From: Palleronia salina | Lineage (GTDB): Bacteria > Pseudomonadota > Alphaproteobacteria > Rhodobacterales > Rhodobacteraceae | Reading direction: 5' to 3' | Assembly: GCF_900141995.1 (NCBI RefSeq) | Contig: NZ_FQZA01000014.1 | Span: 1 to 64,000 of the forward strand | DNA length: 64,000 nt | Shown: piece by piece, positions 15,108 through 54,360 of the stretch | Layout of the letters: each line of letters opens with the position of its first letter | Position numbering within the stretch: position 1 is the stretch's first letter | Made by a program: the position numbers and the translations under genes | Notes under the pieces: generated by a model | Database searches by the model: none | The model's input: only the letters and a program-made list of their open reading frames with translations | What the model was told of the DNA's origin: nothing

Positions 15108-16157
15108 CGCCAGCCTGTCCATGGCTTCGGCGATGCGGTCCGCCAGATCCTCCCGCCCCTGCGCGTCCAGCCTGTCGGTCGACAGCGTGTGCGTCGCCTG
15201 CGCCCCGGCGGCCTGCTTGGCGTAGCGCGGATCGTAGTGGTGGACCATCAACTCGGCCGCCAGCGCATTGGTCTGCCCTTCGACGGCCAGCGCCCGCCAC
15301 GCATCGATCCGGTCACGGCCCTGAAGGGCGACGAGGCTTTCCAGGATGTCCTCGACCCTGTCGGCGTCACGCGCAATGTCATCGTAGGCACGTTCGAGAT
15401 AAGCCGCCCGCGCGGCGACCGGCGCCTCGATCCGGATGCGCGGCGCGTCGTCCTGCATCGCCGCCCAGAGCGCCGGAGGAACGATGATCCGGCCGACCTT
15501 GCTGCTTTCGGCCTCGACCAGCACCGGGCGCGCCGGGTCCAGCGCCTGCACCTGCGCGGCCAGCGCTGTTTCGAACCCTTTCTGGCTGGGCTGCCCACCC
15601 ATGGCGCCGAAGACCGACCCGCGATGGTTGGCCAGCCCCTCGAGATCCAGGATCTGCACGCCGCGCCGCGCGGCAAGGTGCAGAAGCTCGGTCTTGGCCG
15701 TGCCGGTGAACCCGTCCAGCAGCACCACCCGCGCCGGGAACGGCTGGTCGTAAAGCCGCGTCTTCACCAGGTTCCGGTACGTGCGGTAGCCCCCGTCCAG
15801 AACGCGGACGCGCCAGCCGATCTGGGACAGGACCGCGGCGAAACTGTTCGACCGCTGCCCCCCGCGCCAGCAATAGACCAGCGGCTGCCAGCCGCCATCG
15901 TGGCCCGCCAATGGCCCCTCGATATGCGCGGCGGCGTTCTTGGCGACCAGCGCGGCGCCGATCTTGCGCGCCAGGAACGGGCTTTGCTGCTTGTAGATGG
16001 TGCCCACGCGCGCCCGTTCGTCATCGTCGAGAACCGGCAGGTTGATGGCGCCGGGCACATGGTCCTCGGCGAATTCCAAGGGCGAGCGCACGTCGATCAC
16101 CGTGTCGAATTGCGCCTGGATCAGGTCCGACAGCGCGTCTGGCGCGAAAGGCTTCAC
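15090..16157 (-). CDS. mnmH: tRNA 2-selenouridine synthase
   Basis: A 355-residue two-domain enzyme that replaces sulfur with selenium at the wobble uridine of tRNAs, using selenophosphate and geranylated thiouridine. The N-terminal rhodanese domain has the catalytic loop YCWRGGQRS. The C-terminal domain has a P-loop-like GFTGTAKTELL and the family block LANHRGSVFGAMGGQPSQK. Its partner selD converges on it with an 18-base overlap, and the upstream oxidoreductase overlaps it by 4 bases on the same strand. Confidence 0.93.
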   Translation of the reverse strand: MKPFAPDALSDLIQAQFDTVIDVRSPLEFAEDHVPGAINLPVLDDDERARVGTIYKQQSPFLARKIGAALVAKNAAAHIEGPLAGHDGGWQPLVYCWRGGQRSNSFAAVLSQIGWRVRVLDGGYRTYRNLVKTRLYDQPFPARVVLLDGFTGTAKTELLHLAARRGVQILDLEGLANHRGSVFGAMGGQPSQKGFETALAAQVQALDPARPVLVEAESSKVGRIIVPPALWAAMQDDAPRIRIEAPVAARAAYLERAYDDIARDADRVEDILESLVALQGRDRIDAWRALAVEGQTNALAAELMVHHYDPRYAKQAAGAQATHTLSTDRLDAQGREDLADRIAEAMDRLASGNPD

Positions 16158-43761: not shown

Positions 43762-45060
43762 TCAGTACCTGTTTGCAATGGGCAGTTCCTCGGCCGGGAA
43801 CAGGCTGATCACTTCGCATCCATCCTCGGTCACCACGACCTCTTCCTCGATGCGCGCGGCGGAATATCCGTCGGCGGCCGGGCAATAGGTTTCAAGCGCG
43901 AAGACCATGCCGGTCTGGATCTCCATGGGGTGATCCATGGACACCGCCCGGCTGATGATCGGCCGCTCGTGCAGCGCCAGCCCCAGGCCGTGCCCGAATT
44001 GCAGGCCGAAGGCCGCGTCCTCGTTGGGGAAACCCAGCGACTCGGCCGTGGGCCAGACCTCGGCCACCTTGTCGGTGGACACGCCCGGCTTGATCATCGC
44101 GATCGAGGCATCGATCCATTCCCGCGCCTTCACGTAGGCATCGTTCTGCGCCGGGGTGGCGCGGCCGATGTTGAAGGTCCGGTAATAGCAGGTCCGATAG
44201 CCCTGGTAGGATTGCAGGATGTCGAAGAACGCCTGGTCACCGGGGCGGAAATACCGGTCGGTGAAGTTGTGGGGGTGCGGATTGCACCGCTCGCCCGAGA
44301 TGGCATTGATGGCCTCGACATCGTCGGAGCCCATCTCGTAGAGCATCTTGTTCGACAATGCGACGATGTCGTTCTCGCGCACGCCGGGTTTCAGTTCTTC
44401 GTAGATCATGTGGTACACGCCATCGACCATCGAGGCGGCCTGCGTCAACAGCTGGATCTCGTCCCAGTTCTTGATCTCGCGCGCGGCAAGCATGATCTGC
44501 TGGCCGTCGACCACGTTGATCCCCTCTTCCTTCAAAGCGTGGAACATCGCCGTTTCGGCATAGTCGACGCCCACCGGCATGTTCGCCATGCCCGCGTCCT
44601 TGATGAGCTGGGCGATCATCTTGGCGTATTTGCGCATGAGCCCGAACTCGGGCGGGATGGTGCCGCGCATGCCGACGACGCCCGCAAGGCAGTGGTCGGG
44701 TTCCAGCCAGTCCGAGTATTTCTGGTGGTGCACCGCGGCCGAGCCGAAGTCCCAGACATAGGGCGAGTCGTCGCCGGTCAGCAGGCAGAAGCGGCACATC
44801 TTGTCCCGTTCCCATTCGCCGATCTTGGTGGCGCTGACGTAGCGGATGTTGTTCACGTCGAACAGCAGCAGCGAGCCCGCGTTCGAGTTCTTGAGCGACT
44901 GGCGCGTGCGGGCCAGGCGATAGCGGCGCAGGCGGTCGTGGTCGATTCGGCGTTCGAAATCCACCGACATGTGACCCGAGGCGGGCAGCTTGCCCTCCCA
45001 GCGCCAGTTCGGCTCGAGATCCTGCGGCGTCAGCAAGTTGGGCATCAGGGCGCGTGACAT
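43762..45060 (-). CDS. M24 peptidase-family protein with altered metal site
   Basis: A 432-residue creatinase/prolidase-fold (pita-bread) protein. Of the five usual metal ligands, D280 (AFFDILQSY), H357 (FGHGLGL), E390 (VFALE) and E406 are in place. The second Asp is C291 in GYRTCYYRTF. Classic aminopeptidase activity is therefore doubtful, and a non-peptidase role such as amidine or amide hydrolysis, or a metal-independent reaction, is possible. ATG 45060 has an AAGGAG site. The position inside the sugar cluster, between SDR genes, suggests a dedicated catabolic step. I considered DMSP lyase DddP and rejected it. Confidence 0.82.
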   Translation of the reverse strand: MSRALMPNLLTPQDLEPNWRWEGKLPASGHMSVDFERRIDHDRLRRYRLARTRQSLKNSNAGSLLLFDVNNIRYVSATKIGEWERDKMCRFCLLTGDDSPYVWDFGSAAVHHQKYSDWLEPDHCLAGVVGMRGTIPPEFGLMRKYAKMIAQLIKDAGMANMPVGVDYAETAMFHALKEEGINVVDGQQIMLAAREIKNWDEIQLLTQAASMVDGVYHMIYEELKPGVRENDIVALSNKMLYEMGSDDVEAINAISGERCNPHPHNFTDRYFRPGDQAFFDILQSYQGYRTCYYRTFNIGRATPAQNDAYVKAREWIDASIAMIKPGVSTDKVAEVWPTAESLGFPNEDAAFGLQFGHGLGLALHERPIISRAVSMDHPMEIQTGMVFALETYCPAADGYSAARIEEEVVVTEDGCEVISLFPAEELPIANRY

Positions 45061-45132
45061 GGTGTTCTCCTTCCGGGCGCGCATGGCAGCGGCGCCCATG
45101 ATTTGTGGTGGGGGATCGGCGGGGGTGCGGCG

Positions 45133-45942
45133 TTACTTCGTGACCCAGCCGCCATCGACCGAGATCATCTGCCCGGTCATGTAGTCGCTGTCGTCGCTGG
45201 CCAGGAACGAGGCCATTCCGACGATATCCTTGGGATAGGACACGCGCTTGATGACCAGGTTGTTCTCGACGATGTCGTCATAGGCCTGGCCCGCGCGCTC
45301 CTTGAAGCCGATCTCGACCAGGTCCTTGTCCAGCTGCTCCCACAGCGGCGTAACGACGACGCCGGGGGCATAACCATTTACGGTGATGTTGTGCTCGGCC
45401 AGTCCCAGCGCGCCGCATTCGGTCAGCGCGAGACAGCCGTATTTCGACGTGCAGTACACGGTCACGTCCACCAGCGGCTTGCGCGACGCGATGCTGCCCA
45501 CGTTGATCAGCTTGTAGGGGTGATCCTCCATGGGCCCCTGCGCGATCATCTGCTTGGCGGTTTCCTGCATGCCAAGCCACATGGCCTTGGTGTTCACGTT
45601 CATGATGAGGTCCCAATTGTCCTCGTCGATGTCCATGAAGAAGCGCGGCTTGTTCAGGCCGGCATTGAAGAGGCCCACGTTGATCGAGCCGAAGGCGTCG
45701 ACCGTGGCCTTAACGGCGGCGGCGTTGTCCGCGCGCTTTGTGACGTCCATCTTCACCGCGATCGCCTTTCCATTGCCGGCGCTGTTGATCCGCTCGGCAA
45801 CCTTTTGCGCTTCGGCCTCGTCCAGGTCGCCCAGCGTGACGTTCGCGCCCTGCGCGGCAAAGCTTTCGGCGTTTGCGGCACCCATGCCGCGGGCAGCGCC
45901 GGTGATCAGGATGTTCTTACCTTTCAGGCGGTTGGGGTCCAT
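45133..45942 (-). CDS. SDR dehydrogenase, paralogue of the plus-arm SDR
   Basis: A 269-residue SDR with the NAD loop ITGAARGMGAANAESFA, NAGLNKP, catalytic YCTSK and ISVDGGWVTK at the end. It resembles the SDR at 49065 in length and in blocks such as DNWxxIMxVN, MQExAxQMIAQG, GFAPGVVVTxxW and DSDYMTGQ. The pair probably arose by duplication and may act on related intermediates. GAGGAGACACC precedes ATG 45942. It begins 28 bases after the regulator gene ends, so it is the first structural gene of the minus arm. Confidence 0.85.
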   Translation of the reverse strand: MDPNRLKGKNILITGAARGMGAANAESFAAQGANVTLGDLDEAEAQKVAERINSAGNGKAIAVKMDVTKRADNAAAVKATVDAFGSINVGLFNAGLNKPRFFMDIDEDNWDLIMNVNTKAMWLGMQETAKQMIAQGPMEDHPYKLINVGSIASRKPLVDVTVYCTSKYGCLALTECGALGLAEHNITVNGYAPGVVVTPLWEQLDKDLVEIGFKERAGQAYDDIVENNLVIKRVSYPKDIVGMASFLASDDSDYMTGQMISVDGGWVTK

Positions 45943-45969: not shown

Positions 45970-47706
45970 TCAGCGTTTCAGCAAGTCGTCCGCGCGGGCC
46001 TGGGCCGCGCGCAGGGCGGCGCGCGGCGATTGCACCCCGCGCAGCATGTCGTGGAATTCCTCGCCGCAGATCTGGAAGATGCCGGAGATCTCGGGGACCG
46101 GCGGGCGCGGCCAGAATTGCAGCTCGTCGCGCCAGGACATCTCGTCCACCGCCTCGAAGATGGTGGAAAGGCGGCGCACCTCGGGGTCGGCCGCGACGGT
46201 GTAGCGGGGGTTGGTGCGGCTGCCATTCTGGACGTACAGCTTCTGCGCCTCGGGCGAGGTGAAGACGCACAGCGCCTCGGCCGCGGCGGCGATCCGTTCC
46301 CGCGGCAGGTTGGCAGGGATGCCCAGGGCGTAGCCGCCCACATGGGCGATGGGCCGCCCGCCCCGCACCGGCGGATGCGGAAGGTAGCCGGTCTGGCCGT
46401 GCGCGGGTGAGCTCGGATCGTTCTCGAAATACGGAGCAAGCAGGGTATAGCCATAGGCCATCGCCGCACGCCCCGCCGCGTAGGGGCGGATCCGCTCGTA
46501 CCAGGACATCGACAGGATGTCGGGCGGCGAGTAGTCCAGCAGCTGCATCAGGAACTCGGCCGCGGCCAGGCCGGCCGGCGTGTCGATGGTGGCGCGGTAG
46601 TCGTGCCGCGCCAGCGACGCGGTGTCGAAGCCGCCCGCGATCTCGGGCATCGAGACGACGGGCTGGCCGAAATCGGCCATGGTCATCAGCACCGTGTGCC
46701 CCAGGGCCGTGCCCCGCGCCGCGTTCCACGCGATGCCGTACCGCCCTCGCTGGGGTTGGTGCAGCGTCCGCGCGGCGTCGAGCAGGTCGTCCGTCGTCTC
46801 GGGCGGGCGCAGCCCGGCCTCGGCGAAAAGGTCCCGCCGATAGAACAGAAGCTCGGGCGTGGTCTGCGCGGGCACGCCGTAGGCGGTGCCGCCCCAGTGC
46901 GTCGCGCTCCAGCCGGCGGTGTGGAAATCGGCCGGGTCCAGCCGCGCGATGTCGAAGGCCCGCTCCAGCGGCATCAGCACGCCCGCCTCGGCGAATTCAC
47001 CCATCCACGGCAGGTCGACCGCGATGATGTCATAGCGGCTGGTGGGACGTGCGGCGTTGCGCAGCGCCTCGGCCCGCAGCCGGTCGATCGAGAAGGCGCG
47101 CTGTTTTATCGGGACGCCGATGGCCTGCTCGAACTGGCGCTTGAGATTGACCATCACCATGAAGGTCGGATCGCCATGCACCAGGACCCGCAGGCCCGAC
47201 GCCAGCTTCAGCGGGTCGGTCCGCACCGGCAGCGGCGGGATCGAGCGGGCGGCGCTGTAGCTGCCGCCGAAGAAGTAATCCTTCGACTCGGCGCCCTGCC
47301 CGCCCCGACCGAACTGCTGTTCACACAGCCGGCGCACGCGGCCCGACATCTGCATCCATTGCGACAGGAGCCGGTCGCTGGGATGCATGGAAAAGCTCTT
47401 GCCGGTGGCGGTGCGCGGACGCTGCTCGATCAGGCCCGCCGCGATCATGTCCTTCAGCCGCCGGTTCGCCGTGGCGTAGGGCACGCGGCTGGCGCCGATG
47501 ACCGAGGTGGGCGTGACCACCCGCGCTTCGAAATGGCCGCGCAGCAGGTGCAGCGCCATGCGAAAATGCGGCTCGGGCGTGACCATGTCGAAGCCGTCTT
47601 CGATCTCGTCGCTGAATTCCTCGAGAAACGTCAGAATGGACAAGGCATCGTCGGGCGCCGCGCGTGGCGCGACCTCGTCCTGCCTATGCCCAACCATCGA
47701 ATTCAT
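45970..47706 (-). CDS. Winged-HTH regulator fused to a MalE-like solute-binding domain
   Basis: A 578-residue protein. Residues about 45-110 look like a MarR/GntR-type winged helix-turn-helix (TPTSVIGASRVPYATANRRL as the recognition region). Residues from about 170 form a family-1 extracellular solute-binding fold (LRVLVHGDPTFMVMVNLKRQ, YDIIAVDLPWMGEFAEAGVL, YGVPAQTTPELLFYRRDLF, SPEAQKLYVQNGSRTNP). No signal peptide or membrane segment precedes it, so it should act in the cytoplasm as a one-component sensor of the cluster's substrate. ATG 47706 has GGGAGGAAGG ten bases upstream. It is divergent from the importer operon. Confidence 0.8.
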   Translation of the reverse strand: MNSMVGHRQDEVAPRAAPDDALSILTFLEEFSDEIEDGFDMVTPEPHFRMALHLLRGHFEARVVTPTSVIGASRVPYATANRRLKDMIAAGLIEQRPRTATGKSFSMHPSDRLLSQWMQMSGRVRRLCEQQFGRGGQGAESKDYFFGGSYSAARSIPPLPVRTDPLKLASGLRVLVHGDPTFMVMVNLKRQFEQAIGVPIKQRAFSIDRLRAEALRNAARPTSRYDIIAVDLPWMGEFAEAGVLMPLERAFDIARLDPADFHTAGWSATHWGGTAYGVPAQTTPELLFYRRDLFAEAGLRPPETTDDLLDAARTLHQPQRGRYGIAWNAARGTALGHTVLMTMADFGQPVVSMPEIAGGFDTASLARHDYRATIDTPAGLAAAEFLMQLLDYSPPDILSMSWYERIRPYAAGRAAMAYGYTLLAPYFENDPSSPAHGQTGYLPHPPVRGGRPIAHVGGYALGIPANLPRERIAAAAEALCVFTSPEAQKLYVQNGSRTNPRYTVAADPEVRRLSTIFEAVDEMSWRDELQFWPRPPVPEISGIFQICGEEFHDMLRGVQSPRAALRAAQARADDLLKR

Positions 47707-48009
47707 TGCAGACGTGCCTTCCTCCCCGCGGCGTGACGCCGCTGGCAAAACACCCCTCAATCTGGACATTTTGTCGCGCTTCACGTTCGCACCTCTTGAA
47801 ATTGTCCAACCTGGAAGGGCGATCATACGCGCAATTAATCCATTCCGGATAATATTTTATCCACATTGGACATCTTTCCGGCATTCGGGTGGGAACCGAT
47901 CTCTCATATTGATCACGATCATTCGGTGGTTCGAATGATGGCGGGTGGGACGAACCGGCCCGCTAAGAGGAATTGAACCAACATATCTTACGTTTCGGGA
48001 GGAACGAAC
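47707..48009. promoter_or_regulatory. Divergent control region of the catabolic cluster
   Basis: The 303 bases between the regulator and importer genes are clearly less GC-rich than the surroundings. TGGACA occurs at 47763-47768 and 47867-47872, and its complement TGTCCA at 47803-47808, giving inverted and direct copies about 40 and 64 bases apart. GGATAA (47847-47852) and TTATCC (47857-47862) form a separate short inverted repeat. These are candidate operators for the HTH fusion regulator. A GGGAGGAAC ribosome-binding site precedes ATG 48010. Confidence 0.5.
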
Positions 48010-48975
48010 ATGAACCTTCGCAGCACCTTCGCCGCCACCACTGCGGCCACCGCGATGCTGGCCGGCGCCGCCTTCGCGGGCGAGCATGGCGGCACCATGC
48101 GCATCGGCATCACGCAGAACAACGTGGGCGTCGACAGCTACCAGACCACCTACGAGCAGGCCTTCATCGCCGCCGCCGAAGAGAACGAGAACGTCGAAAC
48201 GGTCGTCCTGGACGCCGGCGGCGACGTGGCCCGCCAGATCGCCCAGATGGAAGACCTGATCCAGCAGGACGTCGACGCGATCATCATCTGGCCCACCAAC
48301 GGCGAAGCCGTGATCCCCGCGGTGCGCAAGGCCGCGCAGGCCGATATCCCGGTGATCGTCACCAACTCGAACATCGCCGAGCAGGGCTTCGACTTCGTGG
48401 CCAGCTTCTCGGGCCCCGACAACATCACCCAGGGCGCACGCTCGGCCGAGATCATGTGCGACAAGTTCAAGGAAGAGGGCATCGAGGGCGAGGCCCGCGT
48501 CGTCCAGATCAGCGGCCAGCCCGGCTACACCACCGCCATCGAGCGCGCCAAGGGCTTCGAGGATCGTCTGCCCGAGGTCTGCCCGGACGTCACGCTGGTC
48601 GAGACCCAGCCCGGCGACTGGAACCGCGAGAAGTCGCAGCAGGTCATGGAAGCCTTCCTGGTCAAGTATGACGACATCGACGGCGTCTATGCCGGCGACG
48701 ACAACATGGGCGTGGGCGCCCTGAACGCCGCCAAGGCCGCGGGCCGCGACGGGATCATCTTCGTCGGCGCCACCAACTTCGCCGTGGGTTACGAGGCCAT
48801 GGCGGCGGGCGATTACTGGGGCTCGATCTACCAGTCGCCGGTCGATGACGCGGAAGCCGCGCTGCAGACGGCCATCGACATCCTGAACGGCGAGGAAGTG
48901 CCCTTCCTGAACTACTTCGACACGCCGAAGATCACCCAGGACAACATGGACGAGTTCTCGAAGCCCGTCTTCTAA
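48010..48975 (+). CDS. Periplasmic sugar-binding protein, RbsB-type
   Basis: A 321-residue type-I periplasmic-binding protein with a signal peptide (MNLRSTFAATTAATAMLAG, cleavage near AFA-GEH). It has the usual blocks of ribose/sugar-alcohol-binding relatives: RIGITQNNVGVDSYQTTYEQ, QDVDAIIIWPTNGEAV, SGQPGYTTAIERAKGF and GVYAGDDNMGVGALNAAK. It delivers the substrate to the two RbsC-type permeases downstream. A strong GC hairpin follows the stop, which would favour higher expression of this subunit. Confidence 0.9.
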   Translation: MNLRSTFAATTAATAMLAGAAFAGEHGGTMRIGITQNNVGVDSYQTTYEQAFIAAAEENENVETVVLDAGGDVARQIAQMEDLIQQDVDAIIIWPTNGEAVIPAVRKAAQADIPVIVTNSNIAEQGFDFVASFSGPDNITQGARSAEIMCDKFKEEGIEGEARVVQISGQPGYTTAIERAKGFEDRLPEVCPDVTLVETQPGDWNREKSQQVMEAFLVKYDDIDGVYAGDDNMGVGALNAAKAAGRDGIIFVGATNFAVGYEAMAAGDYWGSIYQSPVDDAEAALQTAIDILNGEEVPFLNYFDTPKITQDNMDEFSKPVF

Positions 48976-49871: not shown

Positions 49872-49921
49872 TTTCAGCGGACGGATCGCGGGCCGGACGG
49901 CCCAGCGCCCGAGGAGGAGCT

Positions 49922-50896
49922 ATGGCGACACTTTCCAAGCAGAAGATCGGCAGCGTTCTGGCGAAACAGGGCATCCTGATCGCCTTTGCCGTGTTCATCG
50001 TGGCCTTCACACTGGCCAACAACAAGTTCCTCACCGTCGACAACGTCTTCTCGGTGGTGCCCGCCTCGGCCAAACAGGGGGTCATGGCGCTCGGCGTCAC
50101 CTTCGTGGTGATCTCGGGCAACCTGGACCTGTCGGTCGGCTCGATGATGAGCTTCTCGACCATCGTGGTGCTGGATCTGCACGACAAGATCGGGCCGTTC
50201 CTGGCCATCCCGGCGATGTTCGCGATGACGCTGTGCCTCGGGGCCTTCATCGGGATACTTGTCGGGTATCTCAGGCTGAATTCACTGATCGTCACGTTGG
50301 GGATGCTCTCGGCGATCCATGGTCTGACGCTGACCTATTCGGGCGGCCAGAACATGGACATCGCCGACAAGGAAGGCACCTGGTTCAGCGTCTTCGGACA
50401 GGGCACTGCCCTGGGCATCCCGGTGCCGATCCTGATCTTTGCCCTGCTGGCCGCGGTGCTGGGGCTGATGCTGTCGCGCACGCCCTTCGGCCGCAAGGTC
50501 TATGCCGTGGGCGGCAATGGCACGGCCGCGACCTTCTCGGGCATCCGGCGCGCGCGCACGGTCTTCATGTGCTACATCCTGTCGGCCTTCTGCGTCGCCA
50601 CCGCCGGATTGATCCAGGCCAGCCGCAGCCTGGGATCGCAGAACACCGTGGGACAGGGCCTCGAGCTCGAGGTGCTGGCCGCCGTGATCCTGGGCGGCGC
50701 GTCCCTGATGGGCGGCTCGGGCACGATCTTCAAGACCGTGATCGGGGTGCTGATCCTGGGCTTCATCCAGAACGGGCTGCTGCTGCTCGGCCTGCAATTC
50801 TACGTCCAATATGTCGTGACCTGGGTGATCATCATCCTGGCCGTCTGGCTCGACATTGCCGCCAAGCGTGGCCGGCTCTGGTCGCCCATCGCCTGA
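49922..50896 (+). CDS. Sugar ABC transporter permease, RbsC-type 1
   Basis: A 324-residue inner-membrane permease with about eight to ten helices and the branch-typical blocks VMALGVTFVVISGNLDLSVG, LNSLIVTLGMLSAIHGLTL and GASLMGGSGTIFKTVIGVLI. It pairs with the second permease. GGAGGAGC precedes ATG 49922. A heterodimer of two RbsC-type permeases is consistent with the two adjacent genes. Confidence 0.92.
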   Translation: MATLSKQKIGSVLAKQGILIAFAVFIVAFTLANNKFLTVDNVFSVVPASAKQGVMALGVTFVVISGNLDLSVGSMMSFSTIVVLDLHDKIGPFLAIPAMFAMTLCLGAFIGILVGYLRLNSLIVTLGMLSAIHGLTLTYSGGQNMDIADKEGTWFSVFGQGTALGIPVPILIFALLAAVLGLMLSRTPFGRKVYAVGGNGTAATFSGIRRARTVFMCYILSAFCVATAGLIQASRSLGSQNTVGQGLELEVLAAVILGGASLMGGSGTIFKTVIGVLILGFIQNGLLLLGLQFYVQYVVTWVIIILAVWLDIAAKRGRLWSPIA

Positions 50897-50911
50897 GGAA
50901 GGAGCAAGACC

Positions 50912-51913
50912 ATGCAACCTGGTGCACTGTCCAAGGCGCTGAAGAACGGCGCGATCTGGGGCTTCATCGTGCTCGAGCTGATCTTCTTCTCGGTCGCGGG
51001 AGAGTTCATGTCGCTCAGCGACACGGCCTTCATGGACTGGGAGAACATGCTGCTGCTGCTCAAGCAGTCGGCTCCAATCGGTATCATCGCGATGGGCATG
51101 ACCATCGTGATGGTGAACGGCAATATCGACCTGAGCGTCGGGGCCACCTTCGCCATCGCCGCGATCATCCTGCTCGACAGCATGACATGGCCGTTCATGG
51201 CCGCCATGGGCGACTGGGCCATCCCCTTCGCGTGGCTGTTCGCGCTGATCGTCGGCACCCTGCTGGGCGCGCTGAACGGTCTGCTGGTCTGGAAGACCGG
51301 CGTCGACGCTTTCATCGTCACGCTCGGGTCCATGCTGGGCTATCGCGGCATCGTCTTCATGTTCAACGGCGAGAACCCGACCAGCCACCTGAACTGGACC
51401 CTCGTGGACTTCGCCGAGGCCGAGTTCCTGGGCATCGCCACCGCGTCGTGGTTCCTGCTGGCCGCCACGGGGGCCATGTGGTTCCTGATGACCAAGACCG
51501 TCCACGGCCGCAACGCCTATGCCATCGGCGACAACCGCGAAGCGGCGGTGAACGCGGGCATCCGCGTCGGGCCGCACATGATGATCAATTTCGCGATCAT
51601 CGGCTTCCTGGCGGCCCTGTCGGCGGTCGTCTTCTACTCGGAATCGGGGTCGGTGAACCCCAATGACGGCCAGCTCTACGAGTTGTGGGTCATCACCGCC
51701 GTCGTGCTGGGCGGCACCAAGATCACCGGCGGCGCGGGCAGCGTCATCGGCACCTTCGGCGGTGTCATCGCCATACAGCTTCTGCGCAAGGGGCTGGGCC
51801 ATATCGGCGCCGATACGTCCACGGTGAACCTCGTGATCGGCCTGATCCTGATCGCCGTGCTGTTCCTCGACCGTCAGCTGAACGTGAAGGGCAAGGAGGC
51901 CTTGAAGGTATGA
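50912..51913 (+). CDS. Sugar ABC transporter permease, RbsC-type 2
   Basis: A 333-residue permease with GIIAMGMTIVMVNGNIDLSV, VDAFIVTLGSMLGYRGIVFM and VLGGTKITGGAGSVIGTFGG, the counterparts of blocks in the first permease. The gene is 15 bases downstream of the first permease, and its stop overlaps the ATPase start (ATGA), so the membrane and ATPase subunits are produced together. Confidence 0.92.
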   Translation: MQPGALSKALKNGAIWGFIVLELIFFSVAGEFMSLSDTAFMDWENMLLLLKQSAPIGIIAMGMTIVMVNGNIDLSVGATFAIAAIILLDSMTWPFMAAMGDWAIPFAWLFALIVGTLLGALNGLLVWKTGVDAFIVTLGSMLGYRGIVFMFNGENPTSHLNWTLVDFAEAEFLGIATASWFLLAATGAMWFLMTKTVHGRNAYAIGDNREAAVNAGIRVGPHMMINFAIIGFLAALSAVVFYSESGSVNPNDGQLYELWVITAVVLGGTKITGGAGSVIGTFGGVIAIQLLRKGLGHIGADTSTVNLVIGLILIAVLFLDRQLNVKGKEALKV

Positions 51914-53424
51914 CCGATACGAAACCGATCCTGCGGCTCGACGGCATCGTCAAGACGTTCCCCGGCGTTCGGGCGCTCGACGGCGTCTCCTTCGCCGTGA
52001 TGCCCGGCGAGGTCCACGCCCTCATGGGCGAGAACGGCGCTGGGAAATCCACCCTGATGAAGGTGCTGGGCGGCATCCACCAGCCCGATGGCGGGGCGAT
52101 CTACATGGGCGACGAGCAGGTCGTCATGTCCGGCCCGCTGGAAGCCAAGGCCAAGGGCATCGTCTTCATTCACCAGGAGCTGAGCCTGGCCGAAGAGCTG
52201 ACAGTGGCCGAGAACATCTACCTGGGCGAGCTGCCGCGAAAAAGCTTCGGCCGGGTCGACTGGAAGACCCTGGCCGAAAAGACCAACGCGATCCTGAAGA
52301 AGCTGCGGGTGGGCTTCGACGCCCTGACCCGGGTGGGCGATTTGTCGATTGCCAACCAGCAGATGGTCGAGATCGCCCGCGCCCTGACCGTCGACGCCAA
52401 GGCCGTGATCTTCGACGAGCCCACCGCGTCGCTGACCGACGCCGAGAAGGTGGTGCTGTTCGACGTCATCAGCGACCTCAAGGCCGACGGCGTGGGCATC
52501 ATCTATATCAGCCACCGGATGGAAGAGATCTTCAAGATCACCGACCGGATCAGCGTCCTGCGCGACGGCCAGTACCAGGGCACGGTCGCCACGCCCGAGA
52601 CCGACGAGGAACGCGTCACCCAGATGATGATCGGCCGCAAGCTGGACCTGACGCGCAACGCGTTGCACCACGAACTGGGCGACGTCGCGCTCGAGGTGCG
52701 GGGCCTCAGCTGCGGCAAGCTCTACACCGATATCAGCTTCGAGGTGCGCCGTGGCGAGGTCGTGGGCTTCTACGGGCTGGTCGGCGCGGGCCGGACCGAG
52801 ATTGCCGAGACGCTGTTCGGTCTGCGCGATCCCTCGGCCGGGCAGATCCTGCTCGACGGCGAAGAGGTCCGGCTGAACTCGCCCGTCGACGCCATCGCCC
52901 GCGGCATCAGCCTGGTCCCCGAGGACCGCAAGGGCCAGGGCCTGGTCCTGGGCATGAACTGCCGGGACAACATGACCCTGCCCCAGGTGGACGATTTGAC
53001 CGCCGGTCCCTTCGTGGCCGAGGGCGCCGAGGTCGCCATCTTCGACCAGTATCGCGACCAGCTGGACATCCGCACGCCGGGCTGGCGGGCCCGGGTCGGA
53101 AACCTGTCGGGCGGCAACCAGCAGAAGATCGTCATCGGCAAGTGGCTGTCCATGCATCCCAGCCTGCTGATCGTGGACGAGCCCACGCGCGGCATTGATG
53201 TCGGAAGCAAGTCCGAGATCCACAAGCTGCTGCGCGGCCTCGCGGCCAAGGGCTATGCCGTCATGGTCATCAGCTCGGAAATGCCCGAGGTGCTGCACGT
53301 CTCGGACCGGATCGTGGCCATGTATTCCGGCCGCATCATGCGGACCTTCACCTCGGACGAGGTGACCGAGGACAGCCTGATCCAGGCGATCTCGGGCCTG
53401 GGCGGTGACGGCAAGGCCGCCTGA
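51910..53424 (+). CDS. Sugar ABC transporter ATPase, RbsA-type double domain
   Basis: A 504-residue two-domain ATPase. Domain 1 has Walker A GENGAGKST and Walker B AVIFDEPTASL. Domain 2 has the usual degenerate P-loop GLVGAGRTE, signature LSGGNQQK and Walker B LLIVDEPTRGIDVG. This is the standard RbsA/MglA/XylG architecture, powering import of a monosaccharide-size substrate. ATG 51910 overlaps the preceding permease gene by 4 bases. Confidence 0.94.
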   Translation: MTDTKPILRLDGIVKTFPGVRALDGVSFAVMPGEVHALMGENGAGKSTLMKVLGGIHQPDGGAIYMGDEQVVMSGPLEAKAKGIVFIHQELSLAEELTVAENIYLGELPRKSFGRVDWKTLAEKTNAILKKLRVGFDALTRVGDLSIANQQMVEIARALTVDAKAVIFDEPTASLTDAEKVVLFDVISDLKADGVGIIYISHRMEEIFKITDRISVLRDGQYQGTVATPETDEERVTQMMIGRKLDLTRNALHHELGDVALEVRGLSCGKLYTDISFEVRRGEVVGFYGLVGAGRTEIAETLFGLRDPSAGQILLDGEEVRLNSPVDAIARGISLVPEDRKGQGLVLGMNCRDNMTLPQVDDLTAGPFVAEGAEVAIFDQYRDQLDIRTPGWRARVGNLSGGNQQKIVIGKWLSMHPSLLIVDEPTRGIDVGSKSEIHKLLRGLAAKGYAVMVISSEMPEVLHVSDRIVAMYSGRIMRTFTSDEVTEDSLIQAISGLGGDGKAA

Positions 53425-53502: not shown

Positions 53503-54360
53503 ATGAAACTGCTCCGCCATGGCGCGCCCGGCGCCGAGAAACCGGGCCTACTCGACGCCGACGGCCGCGTGCGTGACCTGAGCGGCGTGGTCCCCGATAT
53601 CGCGGGCGAAACCCTGCACCCCGAAGGCCTGGCCAGGCTGGCCGCACTGGATCCGTCCGACCTGCCGCTGGTCGACGGCACGCCGCAGGAAGGTCTGCGC
53701 CTTGGCCCCTGCGTGGGCGGCATCGGCAAGTTCATCTGCATCGGCCTGAACTACGCCGACCACGCCGAGGAAGCCGGCATGCCGATCCCGGCCGAGCCCA
53801 TCATTTTCAACAAGTGGACCTCGGCCATCCAGGGGCCGGACGACCCCATCCAGATCCCCAGGGGATCGACCAAGACCGACTGGGAGGTCGAGCTGGGCGT
53901 CGTGATCGGCAAGCCGGGCGCCTATATCGACAAGGCGGACGCCATGGATCACGTGGCGGGCTTTTGCGTCATCAACGACGTGTCCGAGCGGGAATACCAG
54001 CTCGAACTGGGCGGCAGCTGGGACAAGGGCAAGGGTTGCGATACCTTCGGCCCCATCGGACCGTGGCTGGTCACCCGCGACGAGGTCGGCGACGTGAACG
54101 CGCTGGACATGTGGCTGGACGTGGATGGCGAGCGGATGCAGGCGGGCAGCACCTCGACCCTCATCTTCGACGTGCCACACCTGGTATCCTATTGCAGCCG
54201 CTTCATGAGCCTGCAGGCGGGCGACGTGATTTCGACCGGGACGCCGCCGGGCGTGGGGATGGGCTTCAAGCCGCCGCGTTTCCTGTCGGGCGGCGAGACC
54301 ATCACCCTGGGCATCGCCGGGCTGGGCCAGCAGACCGCGAAAGTGCTTCCGGCACAGTGA
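53503..54360 (+). CDS. Fumarylacetoacetate hydrolase family protein, diketo-deoxy-sugar-acid hydrolase-like
   Basis: A 285-residue FAH-fold hydrolase. The blocks GKFICIGLNYADHAEEAG, TDWEVELGVVIGK and GPIGPWLVTRDEVGD, and the ending ISTGTPPGVGMGFKPP, match the branch that includes 2,4-diketo-3-deoxy-L-fuconate/rhamnonate hydrolases and ureidoglycolate-lyase-labelled relatives. Metal ligands (E and D in DWEVELG and upstream) are in place. In a non-phosphorylated deoxy-sugar route it would yield pyruvate plus a 2-hydroxy acid such as lactate, which the FMN dehydrogenase at 41099 could oxidise. It follows the ATPase by 78 bases. Confidence 0.87.
   Translation: MKLLRHGAPGAEKPGLLDADGRVRDLSGVVPDIAGETLHPEGLARLAALDPSDLPLVDGTPQEGLRLGPCVGGIGKFICIGLNYADHAEEAGMPIPAEPIIFNKWTSAIQGPDDPIQIPRGSTKTDWEVELGVVIGKPGAYIDKADAMDHVAGFCVINDVSEREYQLELGGSWDKGKGCDTFGPIGPWLVTRDEVGDVNALDMWLDVDGERMQAGSTSTLIFDVPHLVSYCSRFMSLQAGDVISTGTPPGVGMGFKPPRFLSGGETITLGIAGLGQQTAKVLPAQ

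Follow-up and report, generated by a model that had tools for sequence, protein, structure and literature searches.

A gene that probably spans positions 45970–47784 of the window (the whole stretch of 64,000 nucleotides analyzed here) encodes a protein in which a winged helix-turn-helix (wHTH) is joined to a MalE-like family-1 solute-binding protein (SBP) domain. We are fairly confident that this protein is a cytoplasmic ligand-sensing regulator acting at a predicted operator at 47837–47872, leaving aside the sign of its action. The first-pass annotation had proposed both the domain composition and the regulatory role. The former is seen in Pfam SBP matches, in a structure model containing the wHTH, and in relatives that conserve both parts; the latter is backed by this conservation, the structure model, and the conservation of the predicted operator. 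The features are collected in Table 1.

Table 1. Features of the regulator gene, its protein, and the adjoining genes and DNA sites
Feature	Residues	Position	Strand	Remarks
M24-family hydrolase-like protein		43762–45099	−	In 74/80 loci
SDR dehydrogenase directly 3′ of the regulator		45133–45942	−	In 79/80 loci
Regulator CDS per ORF finder		45970–47706	−	578 aa, ATG start, open frame (translation)
Regulator CDS, probable full extent		45970–47784	−	604 aa, GTG start
Family-1 solute-binding domain	172–577	45976–47193	−	Pfam, Foldseek, phmmer
Flexible linker	133–165	47212–47310	−	pLDDT <50 at 133–156
Long helix, candidate dimer helix (role inferred)	111–132	47311–47376	−	AlphaFold2 model
Winged HTH	46–109	47380–47571	−	AlphaFold2 model; HTH_IclR match in relative L165
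Predicted recognition helix	77–89	47440–47478	−	AlphaFold2 model
Weak third palindrome in regulator leader		47803–47817		3 mismatches
Candidate −10 of regulator (TATGAT)		47822–47827	−	TAnnnT there in 58/79; picked after viewing the profile
Predicted operator, double palindrome AATCCA-N3-CGGATA-N6-TATCCA-N3-TGGACA		47837–47872		21 of 24 consensus letters
Candidate −10 of importer operon (CATATT)		47905–47910	+	A, T columns in 73/79; picked after viewing the profile
RbsB-type periplasmic binding protein of importer		48010–48975	+	
Two RbsC-type permeases and RbsA-type ATPase		49919–53424	+	Second permease traced by BLAST only

Gene extent and N-terminal tail

The reading frame of the first-pass annotation is open over its 578 codons, but its start probably lies upstream, at GTG 47784, 26 codons 5′ of the ATG chosen by the ORF finder. 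Among 79 intergenic sequences (78 loci and the window), an in-frame start was found 43–58 nt past the operator in every case and at 51–55 nt in 75. This start is ATG in 57 sequences, GTG in 21, and TTG in one; a Shine–Dalgarno-like word of four or five bases precedes it in 73/79, and the reading frame is open from it to the finder's ATG in 79/79. Because of the conserved in-frame starts, the Shine–Dalgarno-like words, and the open frame, we take the longer version as the probable gene. The extended N terminus is probably a short polar tail. The stretch TTGGACAA, 5′ of the finder's ATG, was also considered as operator DNA and was partly rejected because much of it reads as this conserved coding tail; the weak third palindrome stays. 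Residue numbers are counted from the finder's ATG (47706).

Structure model and the winged HTH

The AlphaFold2 model was built from 77 aligned sequences, comprising 76 of the 80 loci and the window (L005, L069, L072, and L082 were left out), and had a mean pLDDT of 75.8. Structure prediction of the DNA-binding part had been suggested as a check in the first-pass annotation, and the model gave the expected helix-helix-helix-strand-strand order of a wHTH, with helices at residues 46–59, 66–72, and 77–89 and strands at 93–97 and 105–109 (pLDDT 65–88 by 10-residue blocks). The N terminus folded alone from one sequence had a pLDDT of 42. In the predicted recognition helix, Thr79 is kept in 50/51 and Arg82 in 51/51 of the family rows compared, from which both halves of a split member (L159) were dropped.

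The Pfam matches of the N-terminal part of the window protein are all sub-threshold, namely, MarR_2 (E 0.014; 16.0 bits, cut-off 27) and TrmB, and neither MarR nor MarR_2 exceeded its gathering score. A Paraburkholderia relative (L165), with 26% identity over residues 7–555 of the window protein, passes HTH_IclR with 31.0 bits (cut-off 22). Based on the structure model, the window protein is predicted to carry a wHTH, its own Pfam score lying below the cut-off.

The solute-binding domain and its likely ligand

The window protein matches SBP_bac_1 with E 4e-27 and 96.3 bits (gathering cut-off 26) and SBP_bac_8 with E 6e-23. In the Foldseek search against the PDB, the top three matches were 5iai, 1eu8, and 4rya (best 5iai, E 4.9e-25), and the best 50 matches listed were SBP-fold chains or maltose-binding protein fusions. 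Of the residues that are invariant or nearly so (kept in at least 92% of the 51 family rows), the majority fall in the SBP part. They include Gly457–Gly458, which are aligned with the GGW of transport SBPs, and the residue next to them, Tyr459, is an aromatic kept in at least 90% of the orthologues. This conservation argues against the idea that the SBP part is a dead scaffold, which would only dimerize or contact the transporter and sense no small molecule; we consider that idea unlikely.

The matches include SBPs of known structure that are described as binding sugars, trehalose/maltose, and sorbitol, and the neighboring enzymes show similarity, at scores below the curated cut-offs, to dehydrogenases and a hydrolase that act in polyol and sugar-acid metabolism. 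Because of these ligands and resemblances, a sugar, a polyol, or a sugar acid is the likely ligand of the regulator.

By hydropathy, no signal peptide or membrane segment was seen in the regulator, in line with the first-pass annotation. Its best 15-residue mean was 0.77 in the first 45 residues and 1.21 overall, and the permeases reached 3.05; the test is weak, as the RbsB-type neighbor used as the control scored 1.36 versus 0.77 over the first 45 residues.

Conservation of the fusion and spread of the family

The best 80 of 120 relatives found in a scan of bacterial genomes have 66–99% identity with both parts present, and they align from query residue ≤20 to ≥575. A frameshift or assembly error fusing two separate genes, which the first-pass annotation had raised against its own reading, is ruled out by the occurrence of the same fusion in these 80 loci of other genomes and by full-length matches throughout the family. 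The public annotation reads "extracellular solute-binding protein" for 26 of the 34 plasmid records with a relative, which would fit a secreted SBP. Taken with the fusion artefact, this explanation is most improbable, given the 80 loci in other genomes and the absence of a hydrophobic N terminus.

The own genome has one copy of the regulator; two other matches in it are weak and cover the SBP part only. With the own genome counted in each sample, the alignment profile was matched at E 1e-40 or better by 71 of 394 genomes sampled from the family and by 8 of 385 sampled from the class, and at E 1e-30 by 6 of 398 sampled from the phylum. In the 394 family genomes, 89 of 93 match rows span profile position ≤21 to ≥570; the remaining four comprise a copy cut by a contig edge (G870, L184), two fragments (G896), and a single SBP of the secreted kind (G757, L183). 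Several genomes have at least three copies, and copy numbers are lower bounds because at most three candidates were scored per genome in the profile searches. The profile scores form groups at about 1000, 700, 620, 560, and 410 bits. By sequence, the regulator is a member of a family with several paralogues per genome, a point that the first-pass annotation missed, as it did the probable upstream start.

Three genomes of 1.4 Mb carry a member at about 390 bits; in L152–L154, 1.4-Mb genomes of one alphaproteobacterial family, the diverged member lies beside CUT2-type importer genes. When the Paraburkholderia protein was used as the query in the phylum sample, eight regulator matches began at residues 8–38 and seven ordinary SBP matches at residue 135 or later. 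The 34 plasmid records with a relative reach Skermanella, Agrobacterium, Rhizobium, and Paraburkholderia. In one locus (L159, 8928–10838), a stop codon splits a family member into two ORFs, which may reflect a decayed copy or a sequencing error.

Gene neighborhood and importers

The first-pass annotation placed the regulator divergently to an importer with an RbsB-type binding protein. The divergence is seen in the window, and a divergent RbsB-type gene lies beside the regulator in 79/80 loci. The two permeases were found in 75 and 74 of the 80 loci, the ATPase in 74, and a second SDR in 72, and the sugar-acid genes were less frequent (kduD 32, sdrA 30, lldD 30, FAH 26, and acnA 1); these counts take in matches anywhere in the fetched stretch, and several contigs stop before the locus is complete. 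Twelve other window genes were traced in the 80 loci, and none of them is a regulator.

The M24-family protein is probably a hydrolase of a sugar-derivative pathway; its assignment as the DMSP lyase DddP was rejected, as it scored 120 of the 600 bits. In L155, a 12/12 palindrome at 15500 is located directly before the M24 gene, hinting from the sequence that this gene may be part of the regulon. The FAH-family protein (53503–54360) scored 406.7 of 500 bits for 2,4-didehydro-3-deoxy-L-rhamnonate hydrolase, close to the cut-off but below it. Together with the lldD- and kduD-like genes, it suggests a putative nonphosphorylating deoxy-sugar-acid pathway. In a Phaeobacter locus (L168, 13032–19686), the regulator–importer core is followed by genes for a TPP-dependent E1, a lipoyl protein, an E2, and an aldehyde dehydrogenase. 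These genes replace kduD/lldD/FAH, as alternative catabolic modules on one core.

Of 40 family entries (L099–L164, with both halves of the split L159 counted), 39 lie within 9 kb of a gene that matches the window RbsA, permease, or RbsB by BLAST, where an RbsA match is possible for any ABC ATPase; the only exception is L150, with no importer-like gene in this range. The importer type varies between regulator subfamilies. Annotated plasmid copies adjoin CUT2 importers (one with CUT1 genes too) or a CUT1 importer, and one adjoins an RbsB-like binding protein and an inositol-dehydrogenase-like gene. For the plasmid copy of Rhizobium tumorigenes, no sugar importer lies within a distance of 8 kb. 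Phaeobacter inhibens also carries a plasmid copy.

Predicted operator

Enrichment of 6-mers led to an operator consensus of 36 bp, in which TATCCA-N3-TGGATA occurs twice with centers 21 bp apart. The single palindrome, with at most one mismatch per half, is present in 70/80 intergenic regions (L005 included) versus 0.4 expected. The best 36-mer site has 17–23 of the 24 fixed letters in 79/79 divergent promoters, and 17 or more were reached in 3/1580 shuffles; this score is descriptive, as the same promoters supplied the consensus and related ones among them do not count independently. Apart from the 70/80 value, the operator counts cover 78 loci and the window, leaving out L029, whose contig is without the importer gene, and L005, which almost duplicates the window. 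Three further comparisons, made across the loci, the own genome, and the paralogues, are less circular. In a scan of 1.25 Mb (79 of the 80 fetched loci, without L005), 78 sites with at least 18 of 24 letters fell in the regulator–importer promoter and none elsewhere; at 17 of 24, one site was inside the promoter and four were outside. The own genome contains a single occurrence of the strict degenerate 36-mer, which is the site in the window.

In the paralogues (L099–L164), the 15-mer TRTCCA-N3-TGGAYA was found with at least 10/12 letters within 450 bp upstream of the regulator in 25/39 members, versus about 1.4 in shuffles; one half of the split L159 was dropped from this count, and L162 appears to be the same contig as L018, a locus of the motif set. 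Of the 14 members without such a site, seven belong to an importer-first group or, in part, to a group with another helix, and some have no explanation. In the importer-first loci (L131–L136 and L155), the regulator lies 3′ of the importer genes, and an 11–12/12 site was found 5–7 kb upstream in 7/7, no more than about 250 bp from where the importer's first gene is predicted to begin; when this gene is extended as far as its reading frame allows, the site comes to lie within it in L133 and L135. In L145–L149, L151, and L157, which score near 410 bits, the recognition helix and wing are different and the best upstream 15-mer has 7–9/12 letters. The three 390-bit members, from AT-rich genomes, reach 10/12. 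In the regulator leader, the best 15-mer is at +20 in 46/79 sequences and has at least 9/12 letters in 35, versus about 9 in shuffles.

The palindrome might belong to another regulator, with the fusion protein merely a neighbor. Such palindromic sites serve many regulator families, and the annotated ORFs cover only part of the loci. However, no other regulator is among the traced window genes, no site with 18 or more letters occurs elsewhere in the loci, and similar sites lie beside diverged paralogues with other importers. We therefore regard this explanation as quite improbable and retain the fusion protein as the presumed binder.

Promoter layout and proposed mechanism

On the regulator side, a TAnnnT box is located 10 nt from the operator (58/79), and on the importer side, an A-N3-T box is located at 34–38 nt (73/79), both picked after viewing the profile; a sigma-70 consensus scan found no promoter. 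If these boxes are −10 elements, the operator covers the −35 region of the regulator and lies roughly between −80 and −45 relative to the importer. A site over a regulator's own −35 region and upstream of the divergent gene is the usual layout of a self-repressing divergent activator. Apart from the candidate −10 box, a conserved stretch (47915–47930; aTC and tcCgg in the profile) was observed on the importer side of the operator.

Based on these features, the following mechanism can be put forward. The wHTH of the cytoplasmic one-component regulator would bind the palindrome TRTCCA-N3-TGGAYA as a dimer, and two dimers would stand side by side between the regulator and importer genes, 21 bp or two helical turns apart. 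The linked family-1 SBP fold, presumably captured from a secreted CUT1 binding protein, would close around a sugar- or polyol-like compound, which may be the substrate of the importer or an early product of its catabolism, and this closure would alter DNA binding. Judging from the position of the site, the complex would more likely activate the divergent importer/SDR operon from a position 5′ of that operon's promoter, and it would repress its own promoter by overlapping the −35 region.

Alternatively, the protein may be a plain repressor, in which the apo-protein on the double palindrome blocks both promoters and the ligand releases it, as in LacI. The palindromic operator between both genes and its overlap with the −35 region assigned to the regulator promoter are consistent with this possibility, but about 45 bp separate the end of the site from the presumed importer start, a position more typical of activators. 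Plain repression is the less likely of the two but a serious rival; activation of the importer is the reading that we favor, as somewhat more likely than not.

Origin of the sensor domain

Among the non-regulator relatives found, the one closest to the sensor domain is a 449-aa SBP (L183, 8743–10092) with a signal peptide that is clear by eye. Its gene is the first of an operon that also encodes two BPD_transp_1 permeases and a TOBE-domain ATPase (a CUT1 importer), and the protein is about 40–42% identical to the SBP domains of the regulators. Since this nearest relative is a secreted SBP of a CUT1 operon, a transport SBP probably became the cytoplasmic sensor, as far as sequence comparison can tell. 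In a 54-row tree with fewer outgroups and L183 included, L183 adjoins all 51 regulators, joined at 92/99, and the regulators lie on one side of a branch with 85/82, under the mark of 95/80. In the first tree, which contained distant SBPs and long branches, the regulators did not lie on one side of a branch (3 changes). A single origin is favored, not proven, because of the 85/82 value below 95/80 and the 3 changes in the first tree, and one capture of a CUT1 binding protein would be the simplest reading.

The broadest form of this proposal is an undescribed family of transcription factors in Alphaproteobacteria and Paraburkholderia, which would have one origin (a CUT1 SBP that lost its signal peptide and gained a wHTH), share TRTCCA-N3-TGGAYA, and serve various importer types; we give it an even chance. 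If true, the same ligand may be recognized on the two sides of the membrane by binding proteins of unrelated fold.

Genes labeled as secreted binding proteins, as in the plasmid records above, appear to be local regulators. If so, the annotation would be corrected in many marine and soil bacteria (71/394 of the sampled family genomes), and there would be an operator to search for. The family would also offer a natural example of a transporter binding protein turned transcriptional sensor, with the secreted relative L183 for comparison. Provided that it functions as proposed, it would also supply sensor designers with a natural fusion of a MalE-like module to a wHTH.

Comparison with known systems

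Both SgrR and the related regulator DsvR carry an HTH at the N terminus, and an SBP_bac5 domain is stated for DsvR (PMC13060122). They resemble the present regulator in that an HTH is joined to a solute-binding domain in a regulator of sugar-related genes (PMC13060122). In contrast, Escherichia coli SgrR matches SgrR_N (147.8 bits) and SBP_bac_5, and the window protein matches neither. Membership in the SgrR family was rejected, with no SgrR_N (PF12793) match at E up to 1 and no SBP_bac_5 match in Pfam; BLASTP against E. coli SgrR gave 18.5 bits (E 0.69). The distant member L165 has an SgrR_N score of 12.7 bits, below the cut-off of 24.

The LacI/GalR regulators are similar in having a sensor related to sugar-binding proteins, palindromic operators, and local sugar operons. 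The present regulator differs from them in combining a wHTH with a family-1 SBP instead of a LacI HTH with a type-I fold, and neither a LacI HTH nor a Peripla_BP match was found in the window protein by Pfam. LysR regulators, which are often divergent and autoregulated, join a wHTH-type domain to a type-II periplasmic-binding fold and are alike in this respect. Unlike them, the present regulator has a full-size family-1 SBP of about 400 residues and no LysR match in Pfam.

A 2018 survey of regulator architectures treats PBP-II domains in LysR, and the words "SBP" and "solute" do not occur in its main text (PMC5882156). Among the matches listed from the open-licence literature, no description of a regulator with a wHTH and a family-1 SBP was found. 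The first-pass annotation had called this design unusual. That judgment holds for the family-1 variant, which appears undescribed in the literature searched, but it missed SgrR as a precedent for the joining of an HTH to an SBP. The principle is known because SgrR, with a family-5 SBP, precedes; the family, the sensor class, and the operator appear undescribed in the literature searched.

The family-1/CUT1 transport SBPs 5iai, 1eu8, and 4rya have a fold in common with the sensor of the regulator, with 20–24% identity in the Foldseek alignments, whereas the regulator adds a wHTH and is without an evident signal peptide. The sensor is of the family-1/CUT1 type, yet the importer beside it is of the CUT2 (RbsB) type.
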